Of a stretch of 64,000 bases of DNA, positions 47,757 through 64,000 are shown piece after piece. The translations under genes and the position numbers were made by a program. The notes beneath the pieces were generated by a model. It worked only from the letters and a program-made list of their open reading frames with translations, was not told where the DNA came from and ran no database searches. This DNA is from Lachnospiraceae bacterium (GTDB lineage Bacteria; Bacillota; Clostridia; Lachnospirales; Lachnospiraceae), in contig SVEQ01000011.1 in NCBI GenBank assembly GCA_015057325.1, forward strand, positions 1-64,000, written 5' to 3'. Position 1 is the stretch's first letter; each line of letters begins with the position of its first letter.

Positions 47757-47980
47757 ACTGCCACCTCCTCAACCATAATCCCTTTACACTCATTTCTGTT
47801 AAGTGCAATCATCGTATCTCTGGAATACACAAGAATAGGTCTATTCTTATCATTCTTTACAACGTTAACTTTACATCCGGGTGTTAACCCTATAGATGTA
47901 ATACGGCTCATAAAACGTGTATCTCCTTCTATTGAGGAGATGATTGCCTCCCTGTTCTCCTTAACCTCACTTAAACTCAT
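47753..47980 (-). CDS. feoA: Ferrous iron transport protein FeoA
   Basis: 75 residues from ATG 47980, five bases after AAGGAGG; a weak in-frame start six codons earlier overlaps the ribosome site. The SH3-like fold is recognisable from RFMSRITSIGLTPGCKVNVVKND and a C-terminal MIALNRNECKGIMVEE. It binds FeoB and is required for uptake. Confidence 0.92.
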   Translation of the reverse strand: MSLSEVKENREAIISSIEGDTRFMSRITSIGLTPGCKVNVVKNDKNRPILVYSRDTMIALNRNECKGIMVEEVAV

Positions 47981-48020
47981 AATTTCCTCCTTACCCATAC
48001 AAGGTATGTTACAGATGTTT

Positions 48021-48058
48021 GGTTAGTTTTCACTAACCAGCAGTTAGTATAGACTAAC
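48021..48058. promoter_or_regulatory. Two tandem iron-type operators before feoA
   Basis: GGTTAGT-TTTC-ACTAACC (48021-48038) and GTTAGT-ATAG-ACTAAC (48043-48058), centres 21 bases apart (two helical turns). The second covers the feoA -10 box and the first the transcription start. The motif resembles DtxR/IdeR-family sites (TTAG...CTAA). Confidence 0.8.
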
Positions 48059-48074
48059 AACAACTCATTGTCAA
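48046..48074 (-). promoter_or_regulatory. feoABC promoter
   Basis: On the minus strand, TTGACA (48069-48074), exactly 17 bases, TATACT (48046-48051). It is the strongest promoter seen in the window and is overlapped by the operators at 48021-48058, which suggests repression when iron is sufficient. Confidence 0.85.
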
Positions 48075-48120
48075 TAGTATACAACAGCTTTTCTATCAAA
48101 TGTTTTTTCCTCAAAATTTT

Positions 48121-50853
48121 TTATTCCCTGTTTTTCAAAATTTCAGCCGGTGTATATTTATCCAATCTCTTTACAAGAATCTTATTTATTATCAGATATA
48201 GCACTATTATTACCGCATATACAATAACAAAGAACAACTTAGGAACATAAACATTGAGACCGCAAGTAACATTAGAAATCATAAAAGGAAACATGGAATT
48301 CATGATTATCTTCGAAAGCGGCAATACGATCAATGCGCCTATAGCGATAACGTAAAAGTTTCCGTCCAAGTATAGTTTTCTTATTTCTTTACGTCTGTAT
48401 CCAAACACTTTAATCAGCGAGATATTTTGTGCACTTCTGTCAATCATAACCTTCATCATAAGATACATGACCACACAGAATATAACCGCCGAGGCGATAG
48501 AAAGCGTGTATATCATCGGCATCATAAGATCTGTAAATACTGTCGTGCCCTTTACTACATCCTCTCTGCTCGTCGTTGAATAGAGTCTGCCCGGTTCAAT
48601 ATCCAATTTTTTGTCAGAAAAAAGTACATTGTAGTAATCCCCTGTTTCACCCATCATATCCCTCATTTCATCTATATCCATGAAAATGTAGAATCCCGCA
48701 GAATACTGGGCGATGTCCTTAACTAAAAACGCATATTTCATTTCCTTTTCATCATCAGTAACTACAAATTCCTCACCCTTCTTAATTCCAAACTTTTCCG
48801 CAAATGCATTTGATACCACCACGTCCGTTCTGCTGTTACCGGGTTCAACATCAAAGAACCTGTTGTCATCATCAATTCCAAGAATTGTAACATCAAAGTT
48901 AAAGCCCATTGTGTTCTTCTTACAAGTATAGGCATAAGCAGCTTCCGCATCCTTTGGCGCTTCCTTCTCCGGATACTTTAATGTATACATATATTCAAAC
49001 TTCGTATCATTAGCATAATCTATAGCAATATTATTACAAAGAGAATAACAGTTAACAGCAATCATGAATATAAGAAGCGCTAAGAACATGCCAAGAACAA
49101 CTGCAACTGTCGATCTCATTTCGCGAACCATCTGTCTGATTCTGAAAGCCTTTACAAAATCCATCTTCCCAAGTTTTATCTTCTTATTATTTCCCTGCTT
49201 AACTTCATTTCTGATGAGTGAAAGCGCTGTTCTGTTAAGCTTTGTTCTGATAACAAGAACATTTACAATAACTGCCATAAGCGGCGGGCACACCAGGGAA
49301 TAAATAAATAGATAGTTAGGAATGCTAAATGAAAACTCAGGTATTGAAAAGTATTGGTATGAACTCTCCGCTATCATTGGCGCCATGATACCGGTCGATG
49401 CTATTAAGAGTCCTGCAAGTCCCGCAATAAATGTTACCGCAACCGGAAGTGATATGTAATGCAATAAAAGATCATTTCTTGTCACGCCCATAGAATAAAG
49501 AGTTCCTATGATACTGCTTTCTTTTTCGATAGAGTGCACAACAAATACCGAGATTACATACGCCAAAAGAATAAATATAATGACACCTGCGATTATACCC
49601 ACTTCAATATCAACAATCTTATCATTCTTTGTTGCAAAGATTCGCGGATTATCAGAACGTTTCAAAAACGAAGTAAGATTGGACAGACCAAAATCAAACT
49701 CATCAAGTGCTTCATCAACTTCAACATCTAATCTTTGCACACCGTACGCCATATCATCCGTGCCGTCATACAGTTTATCTACTCCATCTGTATAACTCCT
49801 AATCCCGTCCTTATATTCCTTAAGGTTATCCAGTTGATATTTTGTATTGGAAAGAGACATCCTCATGATACCATTATCATTTTCGTCAATTATTCGTTCC
49901 AACTCTTTATCAAAATTGTCTTCAGTTAAACTAACCTTAATTCCGTATTTGTTAAGGGCTTCTGAAGTCTCTTCAAGGTAAGAATCCAGAAGTTTTGATG
50001 TCGACCTGTTAATGTCGTCATTGTTGTCGGATAGTTCTTTCAAACCATCACGAACATCCTCTGTAGCATCCCGAAGTTTAACAATAGCATCCTTAAGTTC
50101 ATCTGCCACTCCGCCCGTTCTTTCCCAATATTCCTTAAAAAACTTATCATCAACTAACGACGCATCAATCTTTGAATCCCTCAGATAATGCTTCAAATCC
50201 AAGTCTTCTTTGTCGTTACCAAGCTTATAAGCATAGGTGTAATCCTCTGATTTTTGAGCATTTCCCGAAGCTTTGAAATCCTCATATGCTTCTTTAGTAA
50301 AAAATACAAGACCAAATGTCTTCGAATTACATGATGTATCAGATATCTCTTTAAATGGTCCATCATAATCCGACACCACACCAATTCCGGAAATATTATA
50401 GTTTTCTCCGGCTATTTCAAAGCTGTCTCCCAACTTAATATCATGCTCTTGAGCGTATCTTTTTTCGATAACAATGTCATTCTTATCAGAAGGCAGTTTT
50501 CCGGATATGCAATGTATCGTATTAATGTTATCACGAACCTTAAATATCCTTAAAGTTCCCATATCTTCATCCGCCATCTGATAATCAAAGTAAAATTGTT
50601 CTTCGATACTTATCCCCATATCTTTGATATGTTCTATCTCGCTATCATTTAACGGAACAAACACTTCAAACTCTCCGTCTTCAAGATTAGTTTCATCTGC
50701 CAGTTTTACCGTTCCTCTCGAAAGAGTTTCGCCTGAACCTACAATAGTCACCACGAGAAATATACCCATAGCAATCATTATTCCAAGCATAAAATATCTG
50801 ACAAAGTGTTTTCTGAGATTTCTAAAAACCCTCTTTCTTAATACTTTCTGCAT
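48121..50853 (-). CDS. FtsX-type ABC transporter permease (system 1)
   Basis: 910 residues from ATG 50853, with GGAGG upstream; an open frame extends into the ATPase gene but lacks a ribosome site. The start MQKVLRKRVFRNLRKHFVRYFMLG is the usual N-cytoplasmic anchor. A large outside region with a helical coiled part (about residues 270-400, many Asp/Leu) precedes three helices near 430-530. A second FtsX domain ends the protein with VMIDRSAQNISLIKVFGYRRKEIRKLY and four helices. Partner of the ATPase one base upstream; likely substrates are peptides or lipids. Confidence 0.88.
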   Translation of the reverse strand: MQKVLRKRVFRNLRKHFVRYFMLGIMIAMGIFLVVTIVGSGETLSRGTVKLADETNLEDGEFEVFVPLNDSEIEHIKDMGISIEEQFYFDYQMADEDMGTLRIFKVRDNINTIHCISGKLPSDKNDIVIEKRYAQEHDIKLGDSFEIAGENYNISGIGVVSDYDGPFKEISDTSCNSKTFGLVFFTKEAYEDFKASGNAQKSEDYTYAYKLGNDKEDLDLKHYLRDSKIDASLVDDKFFKEYWERTGGVADELKDAIVKLRDATEDVRDGLKELSDNNDDINRSTSKLLDSYLEETSEALNKYGIKVSLTEDNFDKELERIIDENDNGIMRMSLSNTKYQLDNLKEYKDGIRSYTDGVDKLYDGTDDMAYGVQRLDVEVDEALDEFDFGLSNLTSFLKRSDNPRIFATKNDKIVDIEVGIIAGVIIFILLAYVISVFVVHSIEKESSIIGTLYSMGVTRNDLLLHYISLPVAVTFIAGLAGLLIASTGIMAPMIAESSYQYFSIPEFSFSIPNYLFIYSLVCPPLMAVIVNVLVIRTKLNRTALSLIRNEVKQGNNKKIKLGKMDFVKAFRIRQMVREMRSTVAVVLGMFLALLIFMIAVNCYSLCNNIAIDYANDTKFEYMYTLKYPEKEAPKDAEAAYAYTCKKNTMGFNFDVTILGIDDDNRFFDVEPGNSRTDVVVSNAFAEKFGIKKGEEFVVTDDEKEMKYAFLVKDIAQYSAGFYIFMDIDEMRDMMGETGDYYNVLFSDKKLDIEPGRLYSTTSREDVVKGTTVFTDLMMPMIYTLSIASAVIFCVVMYLMMKVMIDRSAQNISLIKVFGYRRKEIRKLYLDGNFYVIAIGALIVLPLSKIIMNSMFPFMISNVTCGLNVYVPKLFFVIVYAVIIVLYLIINKILVKRLDKYTPAEILKNRE

Positions 50854-50854
50854 A

Positions 50855-51562
50855 TTATAAATCCTCCAATTCTTCTGCGGGTATCCTGTTCTCGTTTGTA
50901 TAGTGCTTACCAATCTCTCCATCCTTTATGTAGATGACCCTGTGGACCATATCTTTAATGGAATTATTGTGCGTAACAATTAACATGGTTGTTCCGTATT
51001 TTTTATTTATCTTCTCAAGAAGAATTAAAATATCTTTTGAGGTTTTTGAGTCAAGTGCACCGGTCGGTTCATCGCAAAGAAGAAGCTTTGGATTTTTGAT
51101 AAGTGCTCTCGCAATTGCTGTACGTTGCTGCTGTCCTCCGGACAGTTGAGATGGAAATTTATCTGCATGTTCTTTAAGCCCTAACGTTTCAAGAAGTTCG
51201 TCCATATCAAGCGGATCCTTTGTAAGATATCTGCACACCTCAATGTTTTCTCTAACCGTAAGATTTGGAACAAGATTGTAAAACTGAAAAATAAATCCTA
51301 ATGTGTCCCTACGGTAATCAGAAAGCGCATCCTTCTTAAGACCGGATATCTCAAGTCCATCCACTTTGCACGAACCTGAATCAATATCATCAAGTCCGCC
51401 TATACAGTTAAGAAGCGTGGATTTTCCCGAACCCGAAGTTCCTTGAATAACACACATTTCTCCGCGTTCCACACCAACCGTCACGCCTTTTAATACCTGT
51501 ACAAAACTTCCACCTTCACCATAGCTTTTCTTTAAATCTTTTACTTCAACATACATATCCAT
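50855..51562 (-). CDS. LolD/MacB-type ABC ATPase (system 1)
   Basis: 235 residues. Walker A GTSGSGKST, Q loop in [10 protein letters not shown], signature LSGGQQQRTAIARAL, Walker [14 protein letters not shown] and H-loop IVTHN are complete. The type pairs with FtsX-like permeases. Its promoter has a TetR-type operator in the spacer (51624-51640), so the operon should answer to the TetR gene at 51741. Confidence 0.93.
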   Translation of the reverse strand: MDMYVEVKDLKKSYGEGGSFVQVLKGVTVGVERGEMCVIQGTSGSGKSTLLNCIGGLDDIDSGSCKVDGLEISGLKKDALSDYRRDTLGFIFQFYNLVPNLTVRENIEVCRYLTKDPLDMDELLETLGLKEHADKFPSQLSGGQQQRTAIARALIKNPKLLLCDEPTGALDSKTSKDILILLEKINKKYGTTMLIVTHNNSIKDMVHRVIYIKDGEIGKHYTNENRIPAEELEDL

Positions 51563-51614
51563 TACCTTCCTTTTATAAATCTATTCACTTCTCATCTTTA
51601 CAATGATAGTGCAT

Positions 51615-51643
51615 TTATTATTTACATAACATCGTTATGTTAA
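51615..51643 (-). promoter_or_regulatory. Promoter of the system 1 ABC operon with operator A
   Basis: On the minus strand, TTAACA (51638-51643), 17 bases, TAATAA (51615-51620). The palindrome ACATAAC-ATC-GTTATGT (51624-51640) fills the spacer and touches the -35 box. Confidence 0.75.
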
Positions 51644-51650
51644 AGGCCTT

Positions 51651-51679
51651 TTTAAAGGGCGACTTCGCCGCCCTTTAAA
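51651..51679. repeat. Perfect 11-bp hairpin between operators A and B
   Basis: TTTAAAGGGCG (51651-51661) pairs with CGCCCTTTAAA (51669-51679) around a 7-base loop. There is no clean U tract on either strand. It is flanked symmetrically by the two TetR operators. Confidence 0.65.
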
Positions 51680-51696
51680 CATAACAACGTTATGTT
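51678..51696. promoter_or_regulatory. TetR operator B
   Basis: AACATAAC-AAC-GTTATGTT, perfect 8-base arms. It has the same core as operator A, 38 bases upstream of the promoter -35 box. Confidence 0.75.
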
Positions 51697-51708
51697 GTTC
51701 TCATTTTT

Positions 51709-51732
51709 AAGTGGGACATATATGTCCCACTT
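51709..51732. terminator. Self-complementary 24-bp element after the TetR gene
   Basis: AAGTGGGACATA and its exact complement abut with no spacer, eight bases past the TetR stop at 51741. It could terminate TetR transcription, but the tail on that strand is A-rich, so this is uncertain. Confidence 0.5.
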
Positions 51733-51740
51733 TCTATACC

Positions 51741-52376
51741 TTATGTATTATTTATTACACCAAACCATCCACCGATTATATAAGCAAACATTCCCTTAAG
51801 CTGTTTCAGCGCTTCTTTTTCATTTTTACAATGTGTAAGTAAATGAACAAATATTTCAACCTGATCATGCGCCATCCAGTGAACTATGAACTTATCCTCT
51901 TTCGTCATCTGTTTCTTAGATTTGTACCCCTTCATATTCCAAAACATGTCAGAATAATGTCTGTTCATCATATCCGCGATATCATCAATAATGTTTTCCA
52001 AACTTGACCCTTGTGCCTTGGTTATAAGAATCTCAAAAATATCTTTATGCTTAAAAAGTATCTTAACCGCCTCCGTAGCTGCAGCCATATCATCTTCAAG
52101 ATTAACGTCCATACCCGGCGTATAGTTATCTAATTCTTTCAGTTCTTCCGACATATGTTTTTCTATGCATGTTTTTAGTTCCATCAGCGGACCACCTACA
52201 ACTCCTCTAAAGAGATCATCCTTGTCCTTAAAGAAAAAATAAAGTGCTCCGGTTGTCACACCTGCTTCCCTACAGATGTTTCTAAGAGATGCTTTCATAT
52301 ATCCTTTTTGGGCAAATTCCTTCTCTGCACTCTTAAGAAGGTTTTCAATCGTTTCCTTACTATTATCATTTCCCAT
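51741..52376 (-). CDS. TetR-family regulator (TetR1)
   Basis: 211 residues. The N-terminal helix-turn-helix is typical: LLKSAEKEFAQKGYMKASLRNICREAG, then VTTGALYFFFKDKDDLF. The C-terminal ligand domain is diverged, as usual. Copies of a CATAAC-N3-GTTATG palindrome stand in its own promoter and before the system 1 ABC operon, so it probably represses both until it binds an inducer. The inducer is not known. Confidence 0.93.
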   Translation of the reverse strand: MGNDNSKETIENLLKSAEKEFAQKGYMKASLRNICREAGVTTGALYFFFKDKDDLFRGVVGGPLMELKTCIEKHMSEELKELDNYTPGMDVNLEDDMAAATEAVKILFKHKDIFEILITKAQGSSLENIIDDIADMMNRHYSDMFWNMKGYKSKKQMTKEDKFIVHWMAHDQVEIFVHLLTHCKNEKEALKQLKGMFAYIIGGWFGVINNT

Positions 52377-52399
52377 AATAAACCTCTTTGATATACATA

Positions 52400-52450
52400 A
52401 AATAACACTGTTATGTAACGATTTATATTATATACATAACAGTGTTATCT
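52400..52450 (-). promoter_or_regulatory. TetR1 promoter with operators C and D
   Basis: On the minus strand, TTGACA (52451-52456), 18 bases, TATAAT (52427-52432). Operator D (ACATAAC-AGT-GTTATCT, 52434-52450) fills the spacer; operator C (AAATAAC-ACT-GTTATGT, 52400-52416) lies just after the start point. Confidence 0.8.
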
Positions 52451-52522
52451 TGTCAATCTTTTTTTCAGACACCTAGATTATTTTAATTTATTATTACTTA
52501 TTGTCATTAATAGAATGTTCCT

Positions 52523-54271
52523 TTATGCAGGGTTATTTCCGATTTTCCATGTAGTCGCTTTATTTCGTTCGGATATAAAGTTCTTATATATGCCCTCTTT
52601 TTTCATCAGCTCATCATGAGTACCTTGCTGCGCGATTTGTCCCTTATCAATAACAAAAATCTGATTCGCATTCCTCACGGTCTTTAATCTGTGAGCAATC
52701 ATCACGATAGTTTTCTCGCTTGTCAGAGCTTCTACCGCCTTCATTAGTTTCTCTTCATTTTCCGGATCCACATTGGCGGTTGCCTCATCTAAAATGATAA
52801 TCGGTGCATCCTTCATAATTGCTCTCGCTATAGAAATACGTTGTCTTTCACCTCCTGACAAACTTACTCCACCTTCACCGATTATTGTGTCATATCCATC
52901 AGGAAGCTCCATAATAAATTCATGACAGCAGGCCTTTTTGGCCGCATCAATTACTTCTTCCCTCGAAGCGTCAGGCTTACCAAAACGTATATTGTTCTCA
53001 ATTGTATCATTGAAAAGATATACATTTTGGAATACAAAGGCAAAATTCTTCATAAGGCTGTCGTAGTTGTATTCCCTTACATCAATACCTCCCAATGATA
53101 CTGTTCCCTCATCAATATCCCAGAATCTGGCAAGCAGCTGTGTAAGAGTTGTTTTTCCTCCGCCTGACGGTCCCACAAAAGCCGTCTGTGTTTTTTCAGG
53201 TATTTCAAATGTTATATCATCGATTATTCTTTTCTCCTCATAAGAGAAATCAACATTTTTCATTGCAAGCGTCATTGTATCCGGACTAACTTCCTTCCCT
53301 TCTATTTTCATAACAGGCGAAGAAAGCGCCTCATTTGCCTTATCCACGCAGTTTTCTATGGCACGGGTAAGTCCGTTAAATGATCCGACCTGATCAAGAG
53401 ACTCAAATATCATAAACGAGCATATAATCATCATTACGGCATAAATCAGACTCATAGAGCCATTTAGATAAAAGGTTATACTCATGATTGTAATAACTAC
53501 ACCCGACAGTTTATTCAATATATTTAATAAGAACATCATAATTTCATAGGTTGTCTCCATACTTGTACTGTACTTTGCAAAGCGGTCTATGGAATCATCA
53601 ACATCCGTCACCTTACTTCCGAACAGGTTAAAATTCCTAATTTCCGCAATTCCTCTTACATATTCAAGTATTCTAGACACCATCTCATCCTGGGATTTTG
53701 TGAAATGATCTGCATCATTACTTTCAAGTCTGATCATAAGTTCAGTGCCCAAAAGATATATCACTAGTGTTATCAACGCAACCATAGCTATTCTCACATC
53801 AAAGAAAAACATTGATAGAATGATTACTGCACTTGTTATGACTCCCTTGGATACCACCATGATGCACCTTGAAGCCATGCCCGACATGCTCTCCATTGTA
53901 TTGGTTGCAATCGATGTCACTTTACCAAGTCCCTCGCTGTTAAAGTACCCCATAGGCACGTATCTTAAATGCTCAGCAATCTCCATTCGCTTTATGGAAG
54001 CGGTATTGTATCCGGCTCTTGTCTGTAGCATGGTAGTTTTCATAGAAACAATTGTCTGTAGGAAAATGGATGATATCATTATCGCTACAGCTATGTATGC
54101 ATCCCTTGCCGATAGATTGTTTTCTACAATCTTTCCGATTACTAAATAAATCGCCGGTATCCTCATGGCAACAAATATCGCATTAAAGACCCCCAAAAAT
54201 ATCGCAAGATAGAACTGTTTTCTCTCTTTCTCGGCGCAAAAATCAAAAAACTTCTTTATCGTCCTTAACAT
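52523..54271 (-). CDS. ABC transporter with fused permease and ATPase, second half-transporter
   Basis: 582 residues from ATG 54271 (GGGAGGAAG upstream), two bases past the stop of its partner. Six helices fill the first 310 residues, then an ATPase: Walker A GPSGGGKTT, signature LSGGERQRISIARAI, Walker B IIILDEATANVDPENE. The D loop reads NVDP where multidrug exporters have SALD; this DEATxxxDPE variant is what I know from siderophore importers of exporter fold (YbtPQ, IrtAB). With an iron-type operator before the pair, Fe-siderophore or heme-related import is my inference. A multidrug or peptide exporter remains the main alternative. Confidence 0.85.
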   Translation of the reverse strand: MLRTIKKFFDFCAEKERKQFYLAIFLGVFNAIFVAMRIPAIYLVIGKIVENNLSARDAYIAVAIMISSIFLQTIVSMKTTMLQTRAGYNTASIKRMEIAEHLRYVPMGYFNSEGLGKVTSIATNTMESMSGMASRCIMVVSKGVITSAVIILSMFFFDVRIAMVALITLVIYLLGTELMIRLESNDADHFTKSQDEMVSRILEYVRGIAEIRNFNLFGSKVTDVDDSIDRFAKYSTSMETTYEIMMFLLNILNKLSGVVITIMSITFYLNGSMSLIYAVMMIICSFMIFESLDQVGSFNGLTRAIENCVDKANEALSSPVMKIEGKEVSPDTMTLAMKNVDFSYEEKRIIDDITFEIPEKTQTAFVGPSGGGKTTLTQLLARFWDIDEGTVSLGGIDVREYNYDSLMKNFAFVFQNVYLFNDTIENNIRFGKPDASREEVIDAAKKACCHEFIMELPDGYDTIIGEGGVSLSGGERQRISIARAIMKDAPIIILDEATANVDPENEEKLMKAVEALTSEKTIVMIAHRLKTVRNANQIFVIDKGQIAQQGTHDELMKKEGIYKNFISERNKATTWKIGNNPA

Positions 54272-54272
54272 A

Positions 54273-56060
54273 TTATGCTTCCTCCCTTCTGACTGCAATA
54301 TGGCTCTCCCACATACTCTTGTAGAGCGGACTTTCGTTAAGCAGTTCTTCCTGTGTACCGGAGGCCTCAACATTTCCGTCGTGGATTAAGAATATCCTGT
54401 CAGCATCCGCAATGGTTGACAGCCTGTGTGCGATAACAATCAGTGTTTTTCCTGCTGTCAGTTTTGAAAGCGCACTCTGTATAACCGCTTCGCTTTCAGG
54501 ATCCGTATAACTTGTCGCCTCATCAAGAATTACAATCGGCGCATCCTTCAACATAGCCCTGGCAATTGATATCCTCTGTCTCTCACCGCCCGAAAGATGC
54601 CCTCCCGAACCTCCACAGATTGTCTGATATCCTTTTTCAAGAGAAATGATAAAATCATGGCATCCGCATTTCTTTGCAGCTTCAATTACCTCTTCATCCG
54701 TCGCACCCTCTCTTCCCATGCGAATATTATCCATAACCGTCTGGTCAAACAGATAGTTTTCCTGAGAAACATAGGCTACATGCCTATTGTATTCAACAAG
54801 CGGCATATCCTTGATATTAACGCCGCCAATCATTATTTCACCCGAGTCCACATCCCAAAGAGAAGCAATCAGTCTGGCGATCGTAGATTTACCTGAACCG
54901 GAAGGGCCAACAAGCGCATTCACACTTCCATCCTTTATTTCCATATTGATACCGTGAAGTACCTCTTTATCTTTATACGAAAAATGTACATCTTTAAGTA
55001 CGATTCCATAATCAGAAGGTTGCTTTGTTACACTGTCAGGTCTTACCAAATCCTTTTCATCCATAACGTCGGAAATATCGCTAATAATTTCTCCCACTTT
55101 CGTTATGTCATCAAAATACGAAAATACCGTTATAAGCGGAGCAATAGTTCCAAAAGAAAGAATGATAAGTACAATAAAGTTCGCAGGCGACAGACTTCCA
55201 TTCAGACAATAGATAACTCCTGACGGAAGAAGTCCTAACATCGTTGCAGGAAAACAAGCCATACCAAAGTTCTGCCAAAAATTCTCCTTCTGCATCCAAT
55301 CTATAAAGCAGTCTGCTCCTTCTTTTGCAGCCTTTACAAATTTACCGTAAGAAGTCTTGCTCTGCCCAAAAGCCTTGATAACCTCGATTCCTCCAATATA
55401 TTCGACCGCAACAGCATTAAGCGCTTTGGTCTTTTCAATCGTAACCGGATAATATTTGGGAGTACTTGCCATCATGATTGAGAAAGCAATAAAACCAGCC
55501 GGAATACATATGAGCTGCCATAAGCCCACACGCCAGTCTATACTCATCATATATATGAACATGAGAGTGGCACCTACAATGTTTGCAGTAAACTCAGGTG
55601 TAACATGAGCAAGTGTCATCTCTATCTGGTCAACTCTGTCGCATATGATATTCTTATATTCACCAGAAGACCGGCTCTGTACGGTGCCAAGCGGCATCGT
55701 ATTAAGCTTCTTTAACAATAATTTACGTGCCGATCCGATAAGTCCGAAGGTCGCAACATGAGAAGACATAGTTGAAAAGCCGTGAAAAGCATATCGTAAC
55801 ACCCATAATATGCCTATCTGAGCCCCTCGCTGTATATAGAAACTCATATCACGATTTCCGCCGACAAGTTCCCGTATCAGCTCTGCCAGGCATACATACA
55901 CAAGCATCATACAAGCCACACCAAGCAAAGCGAGTATAATACTCCTTAAATACACACTTCTTTTCCCTTCGGTAAATTTCCAGAGCCAGGCAAAAGTATT
56001 TTTGTTTAACACCTGTGCATCTGTCTCCGTACTACCATTCTTACTTTGTTCTTTTTCCAT
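54273..56060 (-). CDS. ABC transporter with fused permease and ATPase, first half-transporter
   Basis: 595 residues. The N-terminal cytoplasmic lead is followed by six helices (about 35-320), then an ATPase with Walker A GPSGSGKST, Q loop YVSQENYLF, signature HLSGGERQRISIARAM and Walker B VILDEATSYTDPESE, and the H-loop IAHRLS. The D loop YTDP again departs from SALD. It forms a heterodimer with the downstream product. The promoter region has TTAGT-TGCA-ACTAA at 56091-56104, and the TetR2 gene lies just upstream. Confidence 0.87.
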   Translation of the reverse strand: MEKEQSKNGSTETDAQVLNKNTFAWLWKFTEGKRSVYLRSIILALLGVACMMLVYVCLAELIRELVGGNRDMSFYIQRGAQIGILWVLRYAFHGFSTMSSHVATFGLIGSARKLLLKKLNTMPLGTVQSRSSGEYKNIICDRVDQIEMTLAHVTPEFTANIVGATLMFIYMMSIDWRVGLWQLICIPAGFIAFSIMMASTPKYYPVTIEKTKALNAVAVEYIGGIEVIKAFGQSKTSYGKFVKAAKEGADCFIDWMQKENFWQNFGMACFPATMLGLLPSGVIYCLNGSLSPANFIVLIILSFGTIAPLITVFSYFDDITKVGEIISDISDVMDEKDLVRPDSVTKQPSDYGIVLKDVHFSYKDKEVLHGINMEIKDGSVNALVGPSGSGKSTIARLIASLWDVDSGEIMIGGVNIKDMPLVEYNRHVAYVSQENYLFDQTVMDNIRMGREGATDEEVIEAAKKCGCHDFIISLEKGYQTICGGSGGHLSGGERQRISIARAMLKDAPIVILDEATSYTDPESEAVIQSALSKLTAGKTLIVIAHRLSTIADADRIFLIHDGNVEASGTQEELLNESPLYKSMWESHIAVRREEA

Positions 56061-56089
56061 TATTTCTAATCCTTTCTATTTATATTTTG

Positions 56090-56105
56090 ATTAGTTGCAA
56101 CTAAC
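56090..56105. promoter_or_regulatory. Iron-type operator before the ABC pair
   Basis: ATTAGT-TGCA-ACTAAC, one mismatch from the feo operators, lies six bases upstream of a TATAAA -10 candidate (56079-56084) and about 30 bases before the ATG at 56060. Confidence 0.7.
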
Positions 56106-56195
56106 CATATGGCTTATTTTATGCCCCGCTTTTAAGCGGAGCGTCTCATCATAAACATAACGTTTTGCTTAGTCAGGGTAAAGACTCCGAGTAAC

Positions 56196-56810
56196 CTATA
56201 TTCCGAGCAATTCCTTCCATGCCGGTTTATAAAAAATCTGAAGCGTCGAAGCGTAGTGCAAAGCCTCATCCCTTTCAAGACCATGTACTACTGCTTGAAA
56301 TACCGCTTCCACATAGGTTGTTGTCAATAGATGGAACTCCAATGGATCAACATCCTTGACCGGATATCCTTTTTTCTTCAGCACTTTTGTGTAGCGAAGA
56401 GTTACTTCTTCTTCAAGCCTCGCCACCTCATGTATAAAATCCGCATATTTTGTACCTTGGGAACTAAAAACCAGAAGCTTAAATTCATCCAGATGTTCAT
56501 AAATATATTTCATGCCGCGAACAGTCTCATCTTCCCCCTCCCATTCATAATCATCTCCTATACTTTCAAGTTCGTCAAAGTAGACGCCCTCAATCTCATG
56601 ATAGAGTGCATAAAAGCCCTCTATCGCAGGTTCTACAAGAGAAGCAAACATCTCTTCTTTGTTTGCAAAATGCTTATACAGTCCACCGACCTGTATTCCG
56701 GCTTTTGTTGCGATTCTCCTTAAGGAAGCCTCACTGTATCCGTATTCAAGAAATTCTTCTCTTGCAGCTTCCGTTATTCTTCTGTGGCTTTCCGTTTTAT
56801 CTCTTGGCAT
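56196..56810 (-). CDS. TetR-family regulator (TetR2)
   Basis: 204 residues. Helix-turn-helix: ITEAAREEFLEYGYSEASLRRIATKAG, then IQVGGLYKHFANKEEMF. The C-terminal domain has an acidic loop (ESIGDDYEWEGEDETV). Two copies of a GTGAAC-type palindrome stand in its promoter (56842-56882), pointing to autorepression. It is directly upstream of the ABC pair and may also control it, although no second copy is seen there. Confidence 0.92.
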   Translation of the reverse strand: MPRDKTESHRRITEAAREEFLEYGYSEASLRRIATKAGIQVGGLYKHFANKEEMFASLVEPAIEGFYALYHEIEGVYFDELESIGDDYEWEGEDETVRGMKYIYEHLDEFKLLVFSSQGTKYADFIHEVARLEEEVTLRYTKVLKKKGYPVKDVDPLEFHLLTTTYVEAVFQAVVHGLERDEALHYASTLQIFYKPAWKELLGI

Positions 56811-56841
56811 TATCTTTCTCCTATTATCTCACAAAACAAAA

Positions 56842-56882
56842 TGAACAGTGTTCACTTACGCTAGTTAGTGTACACCGTTCAC
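56842..56882. promoter_or_regulatory. Two TetR2 operators
   Basis: TGAACA-G-TGTTCA (56842-56854) and GTGTACACCGTTCAC (56868-56882, the inverse of GTGAACGGTGTACAC). The second overlaps the -10 box, the first the leader. Confidence 0.75.
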
Positions 56883-56895
56883 TTATATTTGTCAA
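56867..56895 (-). promoter_or_regulatory. TetR2 promoter
   Basis: On the minus strand, TTGACA (56890-56895), 17 bases, TACACT (56867-56872), about 57 bases before the ATG at 56810. Confidence 0.75.
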
Positions 56896-56942
56896 CACCT
56901 TTTGGGAATTACTCGGTTTTCATGTATTACCTCCTGTGAATC

Positions 56943-57479
56943 TCATTCTTTCCTGATACAGCGCTGTATATTTTGGGGTATCCTTTTCCATGGTATACAT
57001 CTATTGACATTTTTCTTATATTCTTCATACTCTGCACCGTACAAATCCGCAAGCCATTTTTCTTCAGTATTCTTAAGTACAATAGTCATAACACCCCAGT
57101 TGATAAAGAAAACCGGAATCATACACGCATTATGCCACAAGAAACTTATTCCGGTAAGAGCTATCCACCAACCACTATACATCGGATTTCTGACCCACGC
57201 ATATATGCCGTCCGTTTTCAGTTTGTTTTCGGTAATACTCTCATCCATGCCGGATTTCAACGCTCCGACAAACCAAATGATAATACCGAAAATGATAAGA
57301 GCAACGCCCAATATCCCAAATCCCCACGTCCAAAAACCTGTCAGGGTTCCAATCTCAAAAACGTATGCAAACAAAATGATACAGATTGCAGTAAACAATC
57401 CTATCCCATAGATTAGGTACGGTCCAACCCCAAAAAGAGGCAATTTCTGGCCTTCTTTCATGTAGTTTTTAAGTTTCAT
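56943..57479 (-). CDS. ICMT/PEMT-like membrane methyltransferase
   Basis: 178 residues from ATG 57479 (GAGGTG nine bases upstream). About four helices, then the cofactor and substrate motif of the isoprenylcysteine carboxyl methyltransferase superfamily: TDGIYAWVRNPMYSGWW, and the later NTEEKWLADLYGAEYEEYKKNVNRCIPW. Such enzymes methylate lipids or small hydrophobic acids or amines with S-adenosylmethionine; the substrate is unknown. It is the last gene of the system 2 ABC unit, 61 bases after the LCM-type methyltransferase. Confidence 0.8.
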   Translation of the reverse strand: MKLKNYMKEGQKLPLFGVGPYLIYGIGLFTAICIILFAYVFEIGTLTGFWTWGFGILGVALIIFGIIIWFVGALKSGMDESITENKLKTDGIYAWVRNPMYSGWWIALTGISFLWHNACMIPVFFINWGVMTIVLKNTEEKWLADLYGAEYEEYKKNVNRCIPWKRIPQNIQRCIRKE

Positions 57480-57540
57480 TTTTATTGTCACCTCATCATA
57501 TTAATATCATTTTTGCTCTCTTCTCCAAATCCATTTACTT

Positions 57541-58353
57541 TCATGCCTCTCTTTCATCCCATTCGAAGGTTGCCCATCTGTTATTTATCTTGGGCAACAG
57601 CAAAGCAAATAATCTCCCACGAATACTGTATTTCTTCATCTCCTCATTAAAACTATGCTCCTCGACAAGTCTTATTCCAGATACTAGATTTGCAATCTCT
57701 TGTGCGGAATCTGTTCCCGAGACAAAATGAGCATTCGTATTTTTTACTGCATCATGATATTTCTCATTTTTAACCATCATTTTGCAGTTTTGCTCTGCGA
57801 TGAGAGTCCCTCCATCCGAGAAACATTCCTTCAGATTCTCAAGAAGCGTTTTTATTTGTGGAAAGGTAAGGTACATGAACAATCCTTCTGCAATAAATAT
57901 AGGTTTTGATTTCCTTCCTTCGAGCGATTTTTTAACTTGCGCACACCACTCTTTTTCCAGTGCATTCCCCGCAATCATAGTCACCCGTTCCTGCTCAGGA
58001 AAGGCCTTCGTGCGCACAGCAATCGCATCCGGAAGATCAAGGTCAAACCATAGTATCTTTCCATTGTCCACCCGTGAGAATCTGTTATCAAATCCCGCGC
58101 CAATGTTGACTATCACAACATCCGGGGTTTTCTCTATCATTTTCTTTAACTGACGATCCAACATGATCGTACGCGCAACTACGCCCTCATGGGACATGAA
58201 CTTGTCATATTGTTTTGTATCAAGGCCCAAATGCTCTATTATCTCCACGGCTTTGGTATCTCTGATACGCGGTTTTTTCCTCATGGTTTCACTTGCTTTC
58301 ACAGCAAGCGGTATCAAAGCAGTAGTCTGAACATCCCCTAATTGTATTTCCAT
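57541..58353 (-). CDS. LCM/TcmP-type S-adenosylmethionine methyltransferase
   Basis: About 270 residues; the start is ATG 58353 or an ATG three codons earlier, both near AAGGAG. Leucine carboxyl methyltransferase-like features: ALIPLAVKASETMRKKPRIRD at the N-terminus, the cofactor motif VNIGAGFDNRFSRVDNG, WFDLDLPDAI and EGLFMYLTFPQIKTLL. In bacteria, members such as TcmP O-methylate carboxyl groups of polyketides. No biosynthetic gene is next to it, so the substrate is open. It lies eight to 17 bases after the permease gene. Confidence 0.85.
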   Translation of the reverse strand: MEIQLGDVQTTALIPLAVKASETMRKKPRIRDTKAVEIIEHLGLDTKQYDKFMSHEGVVARTIMLDRQLKKMIEKTPDVVIVNIGAGFDNRFSRVDNGKILWFDLDLPDAIAVRTKAFPEQERVTMIAGNALEKEWCAQVKKSLEGRKSKPIFIAEGLFMYLTFPQIKTLLENLKECFSDGGTLIAEQNCKMMVKNEKYHDAVKNTNAHFVSGTDSAQEIANLVSGIRLVEEHSFNEEMKKYSIRGRLFALLLPKINNRWATFEWDEREA

Positions 58354-58370
58354 TTTAATCATTCTCCTTC

Positions 58371-60821
58371 TTATTCTAATCCCTTCAAAGTTTCCACCAT
58401 ATCAAGCTTCTTTATCCTCCTTGAAAACAGCATACTTACAGCAACTGCAACAAACAGAATAAATACTCCTGATAATATGTACAGATACATCGGAACGTTA
58501 ATATAATAATCAAAATTGTCTCCATTACTATTCATCATAGCTATAAGCGATGGTTTCCCAAACGGGGAGCCCACAATAATTCCAAGTACGGCAAACCAAA
58601 TGTTTTCCTGATTCAGTATTCGCCGGATTTTCTTAGTGGAAAGCCCCATAACCTTAAGTGTGGCAAATTCCTTAAGTCTCTCATGAAACGAAAGATTTCC
58701 GGAATTATAAAGAACTACTACCACTGTAATTATCGAAAAGAGCATCATCATATAAAAAAGATATTTGATAACTTCATATCCATCCACGAAGACCTTCTTG
58801 ATCTTTTCCATATCATAAACACCGGCTACGCCTTCCCTGTCATCATATTTCATTATATTCTTATTCGTTATAATAAAACTCGGAACATACTCACAACCCG
58901 TTCTTTCAAAATCTTCTCGCAAAATCGTGATTCCCGCAGTTTCGGGTGATCTGTTTATTAGTCCAATCTCTGACATATACCAGTCATTTTTTGAATAGAT
59001 ATGCCAGTATATCCTATCGCCTACTCCAACACCCATTTCCTTAGCTAACCGGCTCGTTATTGCCACTTTCCCGGGAATCATTGATGTAATATTGGTTTTC
59101 TCGTCAGTTATATTCTGAAGTCCCTTACCCTCAATTACTGTTATGGTCTGTTTGCGTTTTTCCATTGATGGAGCATTTGGTTTTTTGGCCAATTCTATCT
59201 GATCAGTCATTATCATCTCACCATCTACCTCATCACATAGCTCATCAAAATATTCAACTTTTTTATCATCCGAAAGTACCATCTGATAACCATAATTCTG
59301 TAATTTTTCAAAGTTCCAGTCTACAACATCATCAACCAGTATGTAACATCCAAATGCATATATTACAAGAACAGTTCCAACCGCTGTACCAACAACACCC
59401 ATTACCGCTCTAAGAGGTGCTCTTGAAACATCTCTCATATTATACTGAGTGCTAAAACTTAGTTTGTTCCAAAACGGAAGCCTTTCGGCAAGAATTCTTT
59501 TTGCTTTCTTTGGCGCCGCAGGTCTTAGAGCTGCAGCCGGCGGAACTTTTAGAAGTTTTCTACAGCTGACATATGAAGATAACACGCATACAACAACCAC
59601 TACAGCTGCCACCACATAAAACAGCACATTTGAACCTGCACTGACATCGGGAATTATATACCATTCCATAACCATACTGATTATCAGTTCACCTACAACC
59701 TTTGGTCCTGCTATAAGTCCCGCTAACGCCCCAATAAAAGAAACAAGAAAACTATAACTCATATAATGAACGGCCACTTTACCCCTCTTCATTCCCAAGG
59801 CATTCATGGTTCCTATCTGGGTACGCTGTCTCTCAACAAGCCTGCTCATTGTAGTTGATATTACAAGAATCGCAACCACTAAGAAGATAAATGCAAACGC
59901 ATACGAGAAAGTATCATGCTGACTAAGTTCATCGGCGATTCTCTTAATTCCAATAACGCTATCCTTGTCTATCATTACGGCATAATTCTTATCTATAGCA
60001 TCCGATATTTGCGATTCATAATACATTGCTTCACTAATACTGCTCTTCTCCGCCTTTATCTTTTCTGCAGCAGTCTTCTTCGCATCATCAGTAAATGTAA
60101 CAAGCATCGTTGAGTACGGAATAAGTTCGTCCGAATCTTTCAGTTTCTCAGCATCGATTTTCCCGCTTTCTACCTGATTTTGTACATACTCTCTAATCGG
60201 AAATGCTTTGTAACTCATATACACATAGGCTAACGTTTTAAAGTTTATATCGCTGTCTTTTTCAGCTTTAGTATATTCATACTCAGGCTCCATAATCAGT
60301 CCGCGCACTATTCTTTCAAACTTAACACCGCTATATTCCAGTTTAATCTTATCCCCTACAGATATGTTCCACTCATTGGCAAACGACCAATTAAGCCATA
60401 CTCCGTTTTCATCCTCGCTATCAAATTCAACACTTTTTGATTCCTTTAACCTGTCTAGAGCTCCTTCTTTACCTTTATACAGGTATGGTTTAAGAATTAT
60501 GCTTTCGTCCATAAGATAAATATCCAGTTGAGCACCGTCATAATCAACTGTAGTACCTCGTACCTCGGTTCTGAACTGCGCATCCTTAACAAAATCAAGT
60601 TTTTTTACCTCTTCCAGATTTTCCTTCTTAAACCCTTCACTGTATATCCATGCATCTGCACAATTTGTTTCTCTATGAAAATTCTCAACAGCGTTTCCAC
60701 TTCCAACTACATTTGATTCAAATCCTGCATAAATAAATGTTGCAAGAAACGAAAGAACCATTACCGAAATGAACTGTCCCAGATTACCTCTCATCTCTCT
60801 AAACATTTTTCTAAATAACAT
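58371..60821 (-). CDS. FtsX-type ABC transporter permease (system 2)
   Basis: 816 residues with two FtsX units. N-terminal anchor MLFRKMFREMRGNLGQF and a first helix to about residue 35, then a long outside region, three helices near 310-430, a cytoplasmic linker with AAALRPAAPKKAKRIL, then a further outside region and three last helices. It starts directly on the ATPase stop (ATG immediately before TAA in genome order), so it is tightly coupled. The system 2 unit carries an iron-type operator and ends with two methyltransferases. Confidence 0.88.
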   Translation of the reverse strand: MLFRKMFREMRGNLGQFISVMVLSFLATFIYAGFESNVVGSGNAVENFHRETNCADAWIYSEGFKKENLEEVKKLDFVKDAQFRTEVRGTTVDYDGAQLDIYLMDESIILKPYLYKGKEGALDRLKESKSVEFDSEDENGVWLNWSFANEWNISVGDKIKLEYSGVKFERIVRGLIMEPEYEYTKAEKDSDINFKTLAYVYMSYKAFPIREYVQNQVESGKIDAEKLKDSDELIPYSTMLVTFTDDAKKTAAEKIKAEKSSISEAMYYESQISDAIDKNYAVMIDKDSVIGIKRIADELSQHDTFSYAFAFIFLVVAILVISTTMSRLVERQRTQIGTMNALGMKRGKVAVHYMSYSFLVSFIGALAGLIAGPKVVGELIISMVMEWYIIPDVSAGSNVLFYVVAAVVVVVCVLSSYVSCRKLLKVPPAAALRPAAPKKAKRILAERLPFWNKLSFSTQYNMRDVSRAPLRAVMGVVGTAVGTVLVIYAFGCYILVDDVVDWNFEKLQNYGYQMVLSDDKKVEYFDELCDEVDGEMIMTDQIELAKKPNAPSMEKRKQTITVIEGKGLQNITDEKTNITSMIPGKVAITSRLAKEMGVGVGDRIYWHIYSKNDWYMSEIGLINRSPETAGITILREDFERTGCEYVPSFIITNKNIMKYDDREGVAGVYDMEKIKKVFVDGYEVIKYLFYMMMLFSIITVVVVLYNSGNLSFHERLKEFATLKVMGLSTKKIRRILNQENIWFAVLGIIVGSPFGKPSLIAMMNSNGDNFDYYINVPMYLYILSGVFILFVAVAVSMLFSRRIKKLDMVETLKGLE

Positions 60822-61529
60822 TTACCACTCTACCTCCTCTACGGGTATCGGAGCATCATTTATCTTAATCTCTCTGATTTTGCCGTTTTTCATTCTTATA
60901 ACCTTATCCGCACATTTTGCTATATCTGCATTATGAGTTACCACTATTACGGTGTTTCCATAATTATGAGACATATCTACCAGCAGTTCCAGCACCTTAA
61001 CACCCGTCTCTGAATCAAGAGCGCCTGTCGGCTCGTCCCCAAGAATTATCTTTGGATTTTTAGCAATCGCTCTCGCGATTGATACTCTCTGCTGTTCTCC
61101 ACCGGACATCTGTGACGGGAATTTCTTAGCATGATCCATTAATCCCACCCGCTTTAACATGTCCATCGGATCAAGCGCGTCATTGACTATGCTTTTTGTC
61201 AGTGCTACATTTTCATAAGCCGTAAGGCTGGGAATCAGATTGTAAAATTGAAATATAAAACCGATCTTCTCAGCTCTATAATCCGATAGTTTCTTATCAT
61301 TCATTGCCGAAACTTCCAAACCATCTACCATAACTGTTCCTGAAGTCGGCGTGTCCATTCCGCCAAGCATGTTTAGAACGGTGGATTTGCCTGCTCCCGA
61401 CTGTCCCAGAATTACAACAAACTCCCCTTCTTCTATTGTGAAGTTCACATGGTTTACAGCCACCTGCTTGCCTTCCCCTTGTCCATATTCCTTCACAACA
61501 TCTTTAAACTCAACAATTGTTTTTCCCAT
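60822..61529 (-). CDS. LolD/MacB-type ABC ATPase (system 2)
   Basis: 235 residues from ATG 61529 (GGAGGG eight bases before; an in-frame ATG upstream overlaps that site). Walker [11 protein letters not shown] loop [10 protein letters not shown], signature [15 protein letters not shown], Walker [14 protein letters not shown] and H-loop VVTHN are intact. It drives the FtsX permease downstream. It is similar in layout to the system 1 ATPase but clearly not a recent copy. Confidence 0.93.
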
Positions 61530-61594
61530 GTTAATTTCCCTCCATAACATACTTTTTATGCACCATCATTCTTTAGGAATCAGTTAATCTTCGA

Positions 61595-61610
61595 GTTAGT
61601 CTTCACTAAC
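61595..61610. promoter_or_regulatory. Iron-type operator before the system 2 ABC operon
   Basis: GTTAGT-CTTC-ACTAAC, extended to 7-base arms by A/T flanks. It is immediately downstream of a TATACT -10 candidate (61613-61618 on the minus strand), that is at the transcription start, 66 bases before the ATG. Confidence 0.8.
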
Positions 61611-61673
61611 TTAGTATAGTAACACCTTTATGGAGTTTTGTCCATATTAATCCTAAAAAAAGCTAATAAATAA

Positions 61674-61719
61674 AGGATTCTTTGAAAGACCACTTTCATG
61701 GTCATATTCAAAGAATCCT
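61674..61719 (-). terminator. Terminator of the DUF3793-flavodoxin operon
   Basis: A 13-bp perfect stem (AGGATTCTTTGAA/TTCAAAGAATCCT) with an inner ACCA/TGGT pair, followed on the minus strand by TTTATTTATTAGCTTTTTTT. It is 82 bases past the flavodoxin stop. Confidence 0.85.
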
Positions 61720-61800
61720 AATATATCCACACCCCTGCCTATTATGTGTGTTTTAGTTCAAATCACTAGTAATGTAAATCACATAACCTAACAAATCATA

Positions 61801-62223
61801 TTATACAAGTGCTCTTCCTAGCGATTTGCATTCCTCAAGGTCATCATCGTTAGGGGCATTGTTTGCCATCACACATTCATATGCGAGTTGGGCACCTGCC
61901 GCATTTGCACGTTCCTCCCAATCTCTCATCCACTGTCCGTCTCCCCATCCGTAAGAACCAAACAGAGCTATCTTTTTTCCCGACAATGAACCTTCAACAT
62001 CTATGAACATTGGCTCGTACTCATTCTCTTCTAATACCTCTGCTCCCATAGCCGGACATCCGAATGCAACTCCATCATAATCCGCAAGCATACTACTGTT
62101 AAACTCTGACGGTCCGAATACGGAAACCTCTGCTCCGGCAGACTTTGCGCCTTCCTCTACCGCTGCTGCCATAGCCGCTGTATTACCTGTACCACTCCAA
62201 AAAACTACTGCTACTTTACTCAT
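61801..62223 (-). CDS. Flavodoxin
   Basis: 140 residues. The phosphate loop is WSGTGNTAAMA at residues 9-19; the FMN-contacting loops are GCPAMGAEVLEE and FGSYGWGDGQWM, the latter with Tyr and Trp stacking residues. It carries electrons in place of ferredoxin. It follows DUF3793 by 56 bases with AAAAGGAGG before its ATG, and the unit has an iron-type operator, as expected of a flavodoxin induced in iron shortage. Confidence 0.95.
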   Translation of the reverse strand: MSKVAVVFWSGTGNTAAMAAAVEEGAKSAGAEVSVFGPSEFNSSMLADYDGVAFGCPAMGAEVLEENEYEPMFIDVEGSLSGKKIALFGSYGWGDGQWMRDWEERANAAGAQLAYECVMANNAPNDDDLEECKSLGRALV

Positions 62224-62279
62224 TGATGTTATCCTCCTTTTATTTTAATCCTCTTTAGGGATTTTTATTTACTTTATGA

Positions 62280-62831
62280 CTACGCTGTTACTATTAGCTG
62301 CTCCAACGATTTACCATGTTTCAGTGCCTTGCAATAGACCTCCGTACACTTGTTGAATATCTTAAATGTCTGTTCTGCTTCTTCAACATCTCCATAGACT
62401 TTCCAATATCCTATGCTCAGTACACCCTCTTCCGGACTATTCATAAAACCCTTCACATCCTTTTCCGGGTAACCAAGAAAAAAACCTATCTCATGCGGAA
62501 AATCCTTGTCATCTTTTATATGTTTCACAAGCTGTACAACGCATTTATCAGGATCCGTACAGTTATATCCTTTTTTACAGAGAATACTTCTCGTCACGGA
62601 ACGCATAAGATCCTTTTTCAGATTCTCCAATCTATACAAATAAATCAAAACGTACTTATCAGTATATCTTAACGGAATTACCCTAAGACCCTTCCTGCGT
62701 AATATTTCATTAAGACAACGCAGGTCAGAGTTTAATTTTTCCTTAGACTCTCCCGAAACAGAAAACAGACTTCCCGTCTTTAATCCTGCTAGCGTAGGGG
62801 AACAGTGTTTTACAATATATTGATCCTTCAT
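62280..62831 (-). CDS. DUF3793 family protein
   Basis: 183 residues, soluble. I recognise DUF3793 from the opening HCSPTLAGLKTGSLFSV, the Arg-rich ILRRKGLRVIPLR, then VLIYLYRLENLKKDL and the C-terminal HEIGFFLGYPEKDVKGFM and SIGYWKVYGDVEEAEQTF. In many Clostridia this family sits beside a flavodoxin, as here. The function is not known; the promoter region suggests expression when iron is scarce. AGAGGTG precedes the ATG by eight bases. Confidence 0.85.
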   Translation of the reverse strand: MKDQYIVKHCSPTLAGLKTGSLFSVSGESKEKLNSDLRCLNEILRRKGLRVIPLRYTDKYVLIYLYRLENLKKDLMRSVTRSILCKKGYNCTDPDKCVVQLVKHIKDDKDFPHEIGFFLGYPEKDVKGFMNSPEEGVLSIGYWKVYGDVEEAEQTFKIFNKCTEVYCKALKHGKSLEQLIVTA

Positions 62832-62921
62832 GCAAATGACACCTCTTTATTGTTTTCTAACTGAAATTTATTATTTAACACATCAATACAAGTTATTCTT
62901 ATTATAAATTTCATAAATAGC

Positions 62922-62945
62922 TTAAGTTAGTTGTAACTAACTTAA
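62922..62945. promoter_or_regulatory. Iron-type operator before DUF3793-flavodoxin
   Basis: TTAAGTTAGT-TGTA-ACTAACTTAA, perfect 10-base arms around the shared GTTAGT-N4-ACTAAC core, the most symmetrical copy in the window. It lies between the enolase terminator and the DUF3793 start, about 90 bases before the ATG. Confidence 0.8.
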
Positions 62946-62957
62946 CTTTCAAAATAA

Positions 62958-62992
62958 ACCATCCATTATGTGTATGATTTATAATGGATGGT
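62958..62992 (-). terminator. Enolase terminator
   Basis: A 12-bp perfect stem (ACCATCCATTAT/ATAATGGATGGT), 8 bases after the enolase stop, followed on the minus strand by TTTATTTTG. Confidence 0.85.
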
Positions 62993-62999
62993 ATTATTA

Positions 63000-64000
<1,001 letters not shown>

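Follow-up and report, generated by a model that had tools for sequence, protein, structure and literature searches.

The described systems closest to the one reported here include the repressors of the DtxR family and the small RNAs that spare iron; the published papers are cited throughout from excerpts of their text. According to a review, low-GC Gram-positive bacteria handle iron through Fur and manganese through DtxR proteins (PMC10317159). RyhB, PrrF, FsrA, IsrR and MrsI are RNAs that are switched by iron regulators and act on the mRNAs of iron proteins; MrsI is predicted to be under the DtxR-family protein IdeR, and IsrR acts on the Shine-Dalgarno sequence and the AUG (PMC9410917). We analysed positions 1 to 64,000 of contig SVEQ01000011.1 (the window, 64,000 nucleotides, C11:1-64000 below) of a Lachnospiraceae bacterium (GCA_015057325.1). 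Its genome comprises 3.05 Mb in 24 contigs, which are given C-numbers. The window carries the operator GTTAGT-N4-ACTAAC, and an enolase gene with the same operator in its upstream region lies at its end. The best explanation overall is a low-iron regulon of the DtxR type with an antisense enolase leader, which we consider highly probable.

Operator sites and the DtxR-type gene

The initial annotation of the window had described five copies of the operator as the mark of an iron-limitation regulon of four operons. All five are present, a few bases at most from where it had placed them: exact copies at 48022, 48043, 61595 and 62926, and a copy with one mismatch at 56090. With up to two mismatches, the window held 5 matches against 2.57 expected, and 11 of 100 shuffles reached 5. 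Taken alone, the window thus gives weak evidence, and the strong evidence comes from the genome-wide scan. The control was the same pattern read backwards. The exact pattern occurred at 8 sites in the whole genome and at none in the control, and GTTAG-N6-CTAAC occurred at 12 sites against 3. All 12 were intergenic, and the genome scan that had been proposed as a check thus favoured the motif. GTTAG-N6-CTAAC is a better operator spelling than TTAGYNNNNRCTAA, which was discarded as too loose (13 sites against 20 in the control). With one mismatch allowed, 14 sites stood against 15 in the control, so single-mismatch sites such as that at 56090 need context. Two of them, C7:307045 and C12:196576, were discarded because they lie inside genes.

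The two exact copies before feoA (48022..48037 and 48043..48058) sit on a TTGACA-17-TATACT promoter, as had been described (48046..48074, minus strand; TTGACA at 48069-48074, TATACT at 48046-48051). The −10 element TATACT lies within the second copy. Three double sites, those of feoA, enolase and the HMA operon, all showed TTGACA-17-TATACT with the −10 element inside one operator copy, which is the layout of a repressor site.

The comparative set contained 60 genomes, with the own genome counted in (G-codes denote genomes and L-codes fetched loci). The exact operator was found at 75 sites, against 12 in the control, and was present in 30 genomes. Its targets in relatives were feoA/feoB, DUF3793, FtsX/ABC genes, ABC pairs, dtxR and enolase. 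Other sites lay near ZIP transporters, Trep_Strep (ECF-type) genes, an HMA gene and Fur-like genes, and several had no clear target. The ZIP metal transporter genes (PF02535) near the operator were located at L034:1537-2331, L073:3345-4178 and L048:644-1438. The Trep_Strep membrane genes (PF09605) belong to ECF-type operons that the operator precedes in G024 and G056 (L063:2347-2940, L087:3031-3657 and L088:2395-3000).

The genome has a single match to PF01325 (Fe_dep_repress), at C9:193450, in a gene for a protein of 121 amino acids (C9:193441-193806). This protein matched PF01325 with 40 bits and PF02742 with 48.4 bits, both above cut-off, and is likely the regulator of the operator, as judged from its domains and gene neighbourhood. 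The window had been said to hold no such regulator, and the sole DtxR-family gene found indeed sits on C9. No match to PF01475 (FUR) was found in the own genome by profile search, and Fur was discarded as the regulator there for this reason.

Related dtxR loci were taken as the best 80 of 511 from one contig scan, chiefly from Lachnospiraceae metagenome-assembled genomes and isolates. In many relatives the dtxR orthologue lies beside pta, and the operator separates it from divergent feoA-feoA-feoB genes or from a divergent Fur-like gene. The own dtxR adjoins pta (PF01515), as the orthologues do. One locus of the 80 (L206) had too little upstream sequence and was dropped. Among the remaining 79, the operator (at most two mismatches, at most 400 bp upstream of dtxR) was found at 42 loci, compared with 0 of 79 in the control. 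It was present at 39 of the 43 loci with a divergent feo or Fur-like gene and at 3 of the 36 others (Fisher 2e-14, kinship ignored). The claim that a DtxR-type operator precedes low-iron genes is supported at the sequence level by the sites, the regulator gene and the linkage in relatives. In some relatives the gene diverging from dtxR is a short Fur-type gene, with the operator between them (L123:805-1254, PF01475 42.2 bits; L126:821-1288; L127:794-1255).

IdeR has the ligands Met10 and Cys102, and MntR has Asp/Asn and Glu there (PMC10317159). In the best 80 of 511 DtxR relatives, Glu12, His78, Cys100, Glu103 and His104 were invariant (80/80), and position 9 was Asn in 73 and Asp in 7. The own protein has Asp9. 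The best solved-structure and NCBIfam matches of the regulator were MntR, the NCBIfam match being below cut-off.

The enolase leader and its putative NifU-like target

The enolase gene (63000..64000, minus strand) is truncated by the window end, and the whole gene spans C11:63000-64301. Its operators are at C11:64427 and 64448, the first one 427 bases beyond the window end. Downstream of the enolase operator and also outside the window are the seed core of the leader (C11:64409-64422) and the arms of a hairpin (within C11:64348-64404). Recognisable forms of GTGAATAAATCATGTGAA occur in the enolase leaders of the own genome and seven relatives; a hairpin-forming stretch of varying sequence comes next.

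Relatives have two enolase kinds, often together in one genome, and kind A alone was matched in the own genome. In the sets examined the operator was tied only to kind A. It was found (at most two mismatches, at most 400 bp upstream) at 9 of 24 kind A loci, 5 times exactly, and at 0 of 20 loci of the control set. The 24 were drawn from 30 loci, all covered by one scan (L103 was cut, and L116-L120 were distant). The control set consisted of 20 lower-identity copies, not all such copies, and included one 70% copy from G009. At L094 (G013) and L096 (G029) the operator was farther upstream, ahead of flavodoxin. In a family-wide set of 397 genomes, the family being probably Lachnospiraceae, the operator followed by AAATCAT occurred at 48 sites in 41 genomes, against 2 control sites. 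Among 30 such loci that were fetched, 14 precede enolase and 2 precede flavodoxin-enolase. The operator and seed stood ahead of enolase or flavodoxin-enolase in 24 genera, counted by genus codes.

The own leader, folded from the core onwards, gave a hairpin preceded by 10 seed bases that stay unpaired (−24.2 kcal/mol, z −4.6), and 0 of 200 shuffles were as stable. The G014 leader folds like it. Folding covered 35 leaders and pattern hits, 30 of which are leaders by context; z was −2 or lower for 27 of the 30 (100 single-base shuffles), the others being G066, G352 and G116. The family pattern hits in G136, G253, G161 and G380 (two) were rejected, with enolase not adjacent and z of −0.7 or weaker. 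In 10 further stretches, the 5 with enolase behind had z values of −2.6 to −4.4, and the other 5 had no stable hairpin. One fetched locus, L373, was omitted from the hairpin and covariation sets. No U-run follows the own leader hairpin; the G010 hairpin is accompanied by TTTTGTTTT, and the G002 hairpin is not. In G002 and G010, the operator, seed and hairpin lie behind DUF3793-flavodoxin and ahead of a gene for 105 amino acids, and kind A enolase was not found (G010 is 70% complete), so the leader RNA seems able to outlive enolase. An Rfam search of eight enolase loci gave two matches up to E 1, to human-type microRNA models far below gathering scores, and a known riboswitch or RNA family in the leader was discarded for lack of a meaningful match.

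The exact 14-mer TGAATAAATCATGT occurs at two places only in the own genome: one is the leader, and the other is the start of a NifU-like gene, where it lies on the opposite strand. This gene (C2:19084-19788, 235 amino acids) was named from a weak NifU match (E 5.7e-4, below cut-off) and is followed by a GGGtGRT gene (PF14057, E 2.8e-190). Through this match the leader is antisense, with one bulge, to UGAAAGGAGUUUCAACAUGAUUUAUUCAC, the ribosome-binding site and start codon of the NifU-like gene. The 14-mer was found in 20 of the 60 genomes, all of the own genus, typically once and at the NifU-like gene; the backward control gave 1 site. It occurs additionally at operator-linked leaders in G000, G004, G012 and G014 (enolase) and G003 (flavodoxin). 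The sequence AGGACTAGATTTTTT lies upstream of the NifU-like gene (L276:5893-5907, minus strand), with similar forms in many genus members.

The duplex of the own leader and target was predicted at −37.5 kcal/mol, compared with a mean of −13.1 for shuffles, and 0 of 500 shuffles were as low. The pairing test used 30 leaders and 31 targets, the G002 target having no leader entry. The 30 true pairs had a mean of −30.6 kcal/mol against −25.1 (standard deviation 0.7) when reshuffled, with 0 of 20,000 reshufflings as good. With one pair per genus (25 pairs) the values were −30.8 and −24.3 kcal/mol, again with 0 of 20,000.

Codon 3 of the target was TAT in 23 genomes and TAC in 7. The leader base facing it was A in 22 of the 23 TAT genomes and G in all 7 TAC genomes, giving 29 matches in 30. 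The Fisher test gave 6e-7 on 29 genomes, kinship ignored; G136 was omitted from this test and from the independent-pair test. Both labels show 5 changes along the target tree, well-supported branches forcing 3 of them, and 3 of 3 independent pairs were concordant. TAT and TAC are synonymous, so protein constraint does not account for the covariation. To judge by complementarity and covariation, the seed-target pairing is maintained. In G007, G018 and G021, where kind A enolase was not found, no seed stood beside operator-type sites in the stretches examined. In G009 the leader was present and the target was not found.

Proposed mechanism and alternatives

We infer a course of events that runs from the metal bound and the repression to the transcript start and a translational block. 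The DtxR repressor of 121 amino acids, carrying ferrous iron, or perhaps manganese, would bind GTTAGY-N4-RCTAAC-like sites and block the promoters. When the metal is scarce, the promoters of ferrous iron uptake, the transporters, flavodoxin, the metal P-type ATPase operon and enolase would fire. The enolase transcript would begin with the antisense seed, with the hairpin next. The seed would pair with the Shine-Dalgarno sequence and AUG of the NifU-like/GGGtGRT mRNA, translation of this putative iron-sulfur type protein would be stopped, and iron would be spared. It is probable in our judgement that the enolase 5′ leader is a dual-purpose, family-wide RNA, serving both as part of an enzyme mRNA and as a trans-acting, iron-sparing antisense of the NifU-like/GGGtGRT operon, with a DtxR-type repressor replacing Fur.

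Several observations weigh against this explanation. The own dtxR has no operator upstream, so the assignment of the regulator in the own genome rests on orthology and the synteny shared with pta. The ligands are mixed, with Cys100 as in IdeR and Asp9 as in MntR, and the Met of IdeR is absent; this mix does not fix the metal, and the gene set points to iron. At 15 of the 24 kind A enolase loci there was no operator within 400 bp. The leaders were picked mostly via patterns that contain AAATCAT. The part of the own leader opposite the Shine-Dalgarno sequence is folded within its own hairpin, and the G012 seed was predicted to be paired. The NifU call of the target is the weak match given above, and Pfam was unmatched. 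The TAT/TAC signal amounts to 5 changes, and three independent pairs are too few for significance alone. The pairs of G116, G136, G175, G253 and G004 failed to beat all 100 shuffles, and G013 was beaten by 1 of 500 in another run, in which G004 beat 500 of 500. The true target ranked first for 7 of 30 leaders and 16th or lower for 4 (G014, G175, G224 and G253).

A DtxR-controlled regulon whose sensor answers to manganese, as MntR does, with a manganese or mixed manganese/iron response, seems to us unlikely. MntR is the best match of the regulator in both searches named above, Asp9 or Asn9 stands in place of Met, ZIP transporters lie close to the operator in G004, G017 and G050, and enolase uses magnesium or manganese. 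The IdeR-type ligand Cys100 (PMC10317159) is invariant in the 80 best relatives of 511, however, and feoA/feoB, flavodoxin and the NifU-like target indicate iron. We suggest iron rather than manganese as the probable metal.

The pairing itself could be read in reverse, the NifU-like mRNA acting on the enolase leader and tuning enolase. The duplex is symmetric, and the leader forms the 5′ part of the enolase mRNA, with a hairpin that has no following U-run. In the target, however, the pairing covers the Shine-Dalgarno sequence and start codon, and G002 and G010 carry the operator, seed and hairpin without enolase, which makes the reverse direction improbable. The motif might also belong to the TetR regulators beside the transporters, two of which are encoded in the window; sites near TetR-like genes occur in some relatives too. 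We regard this as very unlikely, since there are sites with no TetR gene read nearby, for example on C23 and at the dtxR-feo loci, and the operator is linked to dtxR (39/43 against 3/36 among the 79 loci from the best 80 of 511). A DtxR-type regulon with an antisense enolase leader is the explanation followed below.

Genes of the proposed regulon and comparison with known systems

All window genes described here are on the minus strand. Behind the feoA double site lie feoA (47753..47998, PF04023 59 bits) and the ferrous iron transporter gene feoB (45738..47756, TIGR00437 364.6 bits), both above cut-off; feoA relatives with 55-57% identity follow the operator in G012 and G024. Next, at rising coordinates, are an FtsX-type ABC permease (48121..50922, PF02687 63.6 bits), an ABC ATPase (50855..51562, PF00005 118.8 bits) and a TetR-type regulator (51741..52376, PF00440 52.3 bits). 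The site with one outer mismatch (56090..56105) precedes the first ABC pair, half transporters A (54273..56060) and B (52523..54373), which gave ABC exporter-type NCBIfam matches, those listed being below their cut-offs. A relative of half transporter A (39%) lies behind the operator in G056.

The second TetR-type regulator (56196..56810, PF00440 55.4 bits) is followed, at rising coordinates, by a PEMT/ICMT-type methyltransferase (56943..57491, PF04191 and PF04140, both above cut-off), a leucine carboxyl methyltransferase-type gene (57541..58362, PF04072, above cut-off), a second FtsX-type permease (58371..60821, PF02687 109 bits) and a second ABC ATPase (60822..61550, PF00005 122.6 bits). The exact operator of this second FtsX/ABC operon, which includes the two methyltransferases, is at 61595..61610, and an ATPase relative (74%) lies behind the operator in G008. 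The operator at 62926..62941, also exact, precedes DUF3793 (62280..62831, PF12672 185.7 bits) and flavodoxin (61801..62223, TIGR01753 above cut-off, PF00258). A hairpin at 62959-62991, between enolase and this operator, is likely a terminator. Its loop region, when read on the minus strand, contains ATAAATCAT, the leader seed core, perhaps by chance.

Outside the window, operators precede a second ABC pair (C11:68030), the HMA/DUF6110/P-type ATPase genes with a third ABC pair (C11:74539 and 74560), a third FtsX/ABC pair (C9:189511) and a second feoA and feoB (C23:100060 and 100375). The HMA-type gene, the DUF6110 gene (PF19605) and the heavy-metal P-type ATPase gene occupy C11:71631-74492 (L015:11632-14493), under the double operator and ahead of the ABC pair; they are possibly a ferrosome operon. 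In our reading of gene order, the regulon would comprise nine transcription units, the 56090 site included. The shared operator of the initial annotation stands, and its size of four operons does not. Its prediction of iron control for the transporters and methyltransferases holds as regards regulon membership, and iron over manganese is the part that we only suggest.

In Porphyromonas gingivalis, TetR with ABC ATP-binding proteins, ICMT-type and class I SAM methyltransferases and flavodoxin are induced by low iron, and in Bacteroides thetaiotaomicron GGGtGRT-NifU is listed at −11 to −12.8 fold (PMC10434189). In the early phase of Clostridium pasteurianum without iron, enolase was 4.1-4.8 times and flavodoxin 14.3 times higher, and triosephosphate isomerase and GAPDH were not raised alongside enolase; with iron, the GGGtGRT protein was 7.1 times and a NifU-related protein 2.4-3.7 times higher (PMC5395762). 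These data fit the proposal, and those organisms need not use this RNA.

New here are the likely regulator, enolase as a regulon member and the antisense leader. The titles and abstract openings among the matches listed made no mention of a DtxR regulon that has an enolase leader RNA, most subscription papers being outside the search. For a large gut family, the proposal would supply an iron regulon open to testing, with both a regulator gene and an operator named; the review expects Fur there (PMC10317159). The proposal would offer a reason for the rise of enolase and the fall of GGGtGRT without iron in another clostridium (PMC5395762), and it would place DUF3793, the methyltransferases, the ABC pairs and GGGtGRT in iron physiology.

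The system resembles DtxR/IdeR of Actinobacteria in the PF01325 and PF02742 domains and in an operator over the promoter. The 19-bp IdeR box TTAGGTTAGSCTAACCTAA contains TTAG-N6-CTAA with the same spacing as here (PMC10317159). The operator here is the 16-bp GTTAGT-N4-ACTAAC and does not qualify as an IdeR box, only TTAG-N6-CTAA being common to both. Unlike IdeR, the protein here is short, has no room for an SH3 domain and belongs to a Lachnospiraceae host. It is like MntR in size, in the Asp/Asn first ligand and in its best structure and NCBIfam matches, and unlike MntR it has Cys in place of the Glu ligand and targets of the iron type.

The HMA/DUF6110/ATPase operon resembles the fez operons of ferrosomes, which also join a P-type ATPase for metal to membrane partners and are controlled by iron, as is predicted here. 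The ATPases of fez operons belong to the P1B6 class. DUF6110 accompanies P1B6 ATPases (PMC9374683), and FezA and FezB are repressed by Fur in C. difficile (PMC12574912). Unlike the fez operons, the ATPase operon here, a candidate ferrosome operon by its genes, is under a DtxR-type operator and has an ABC pair next. The Treponema tro operon is also comparable: in T. pallidum one unit joins a DtxR-like repressor gene and a glycolytic gene, gpm; the enzyme and operator are different, and the cited excerpt describes no antisense leader (PMC2628430).

The proposed likeness of the leader is to RyhB and the other iron-sparing RNAs. In the own genome and relatives, the operator sequence stands immediately ahead of the seed, and this arrangement may correspond to the iron-regulator promoter of those RNAs. 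Unlike them, the RNA here forms the 5′ leader of enolase or of flavodoxin-enolase and has one known target, and sequence kinship was not seen. If the proposal is true, the leader of a housekeeping mRNA would perform the job of RyhB.

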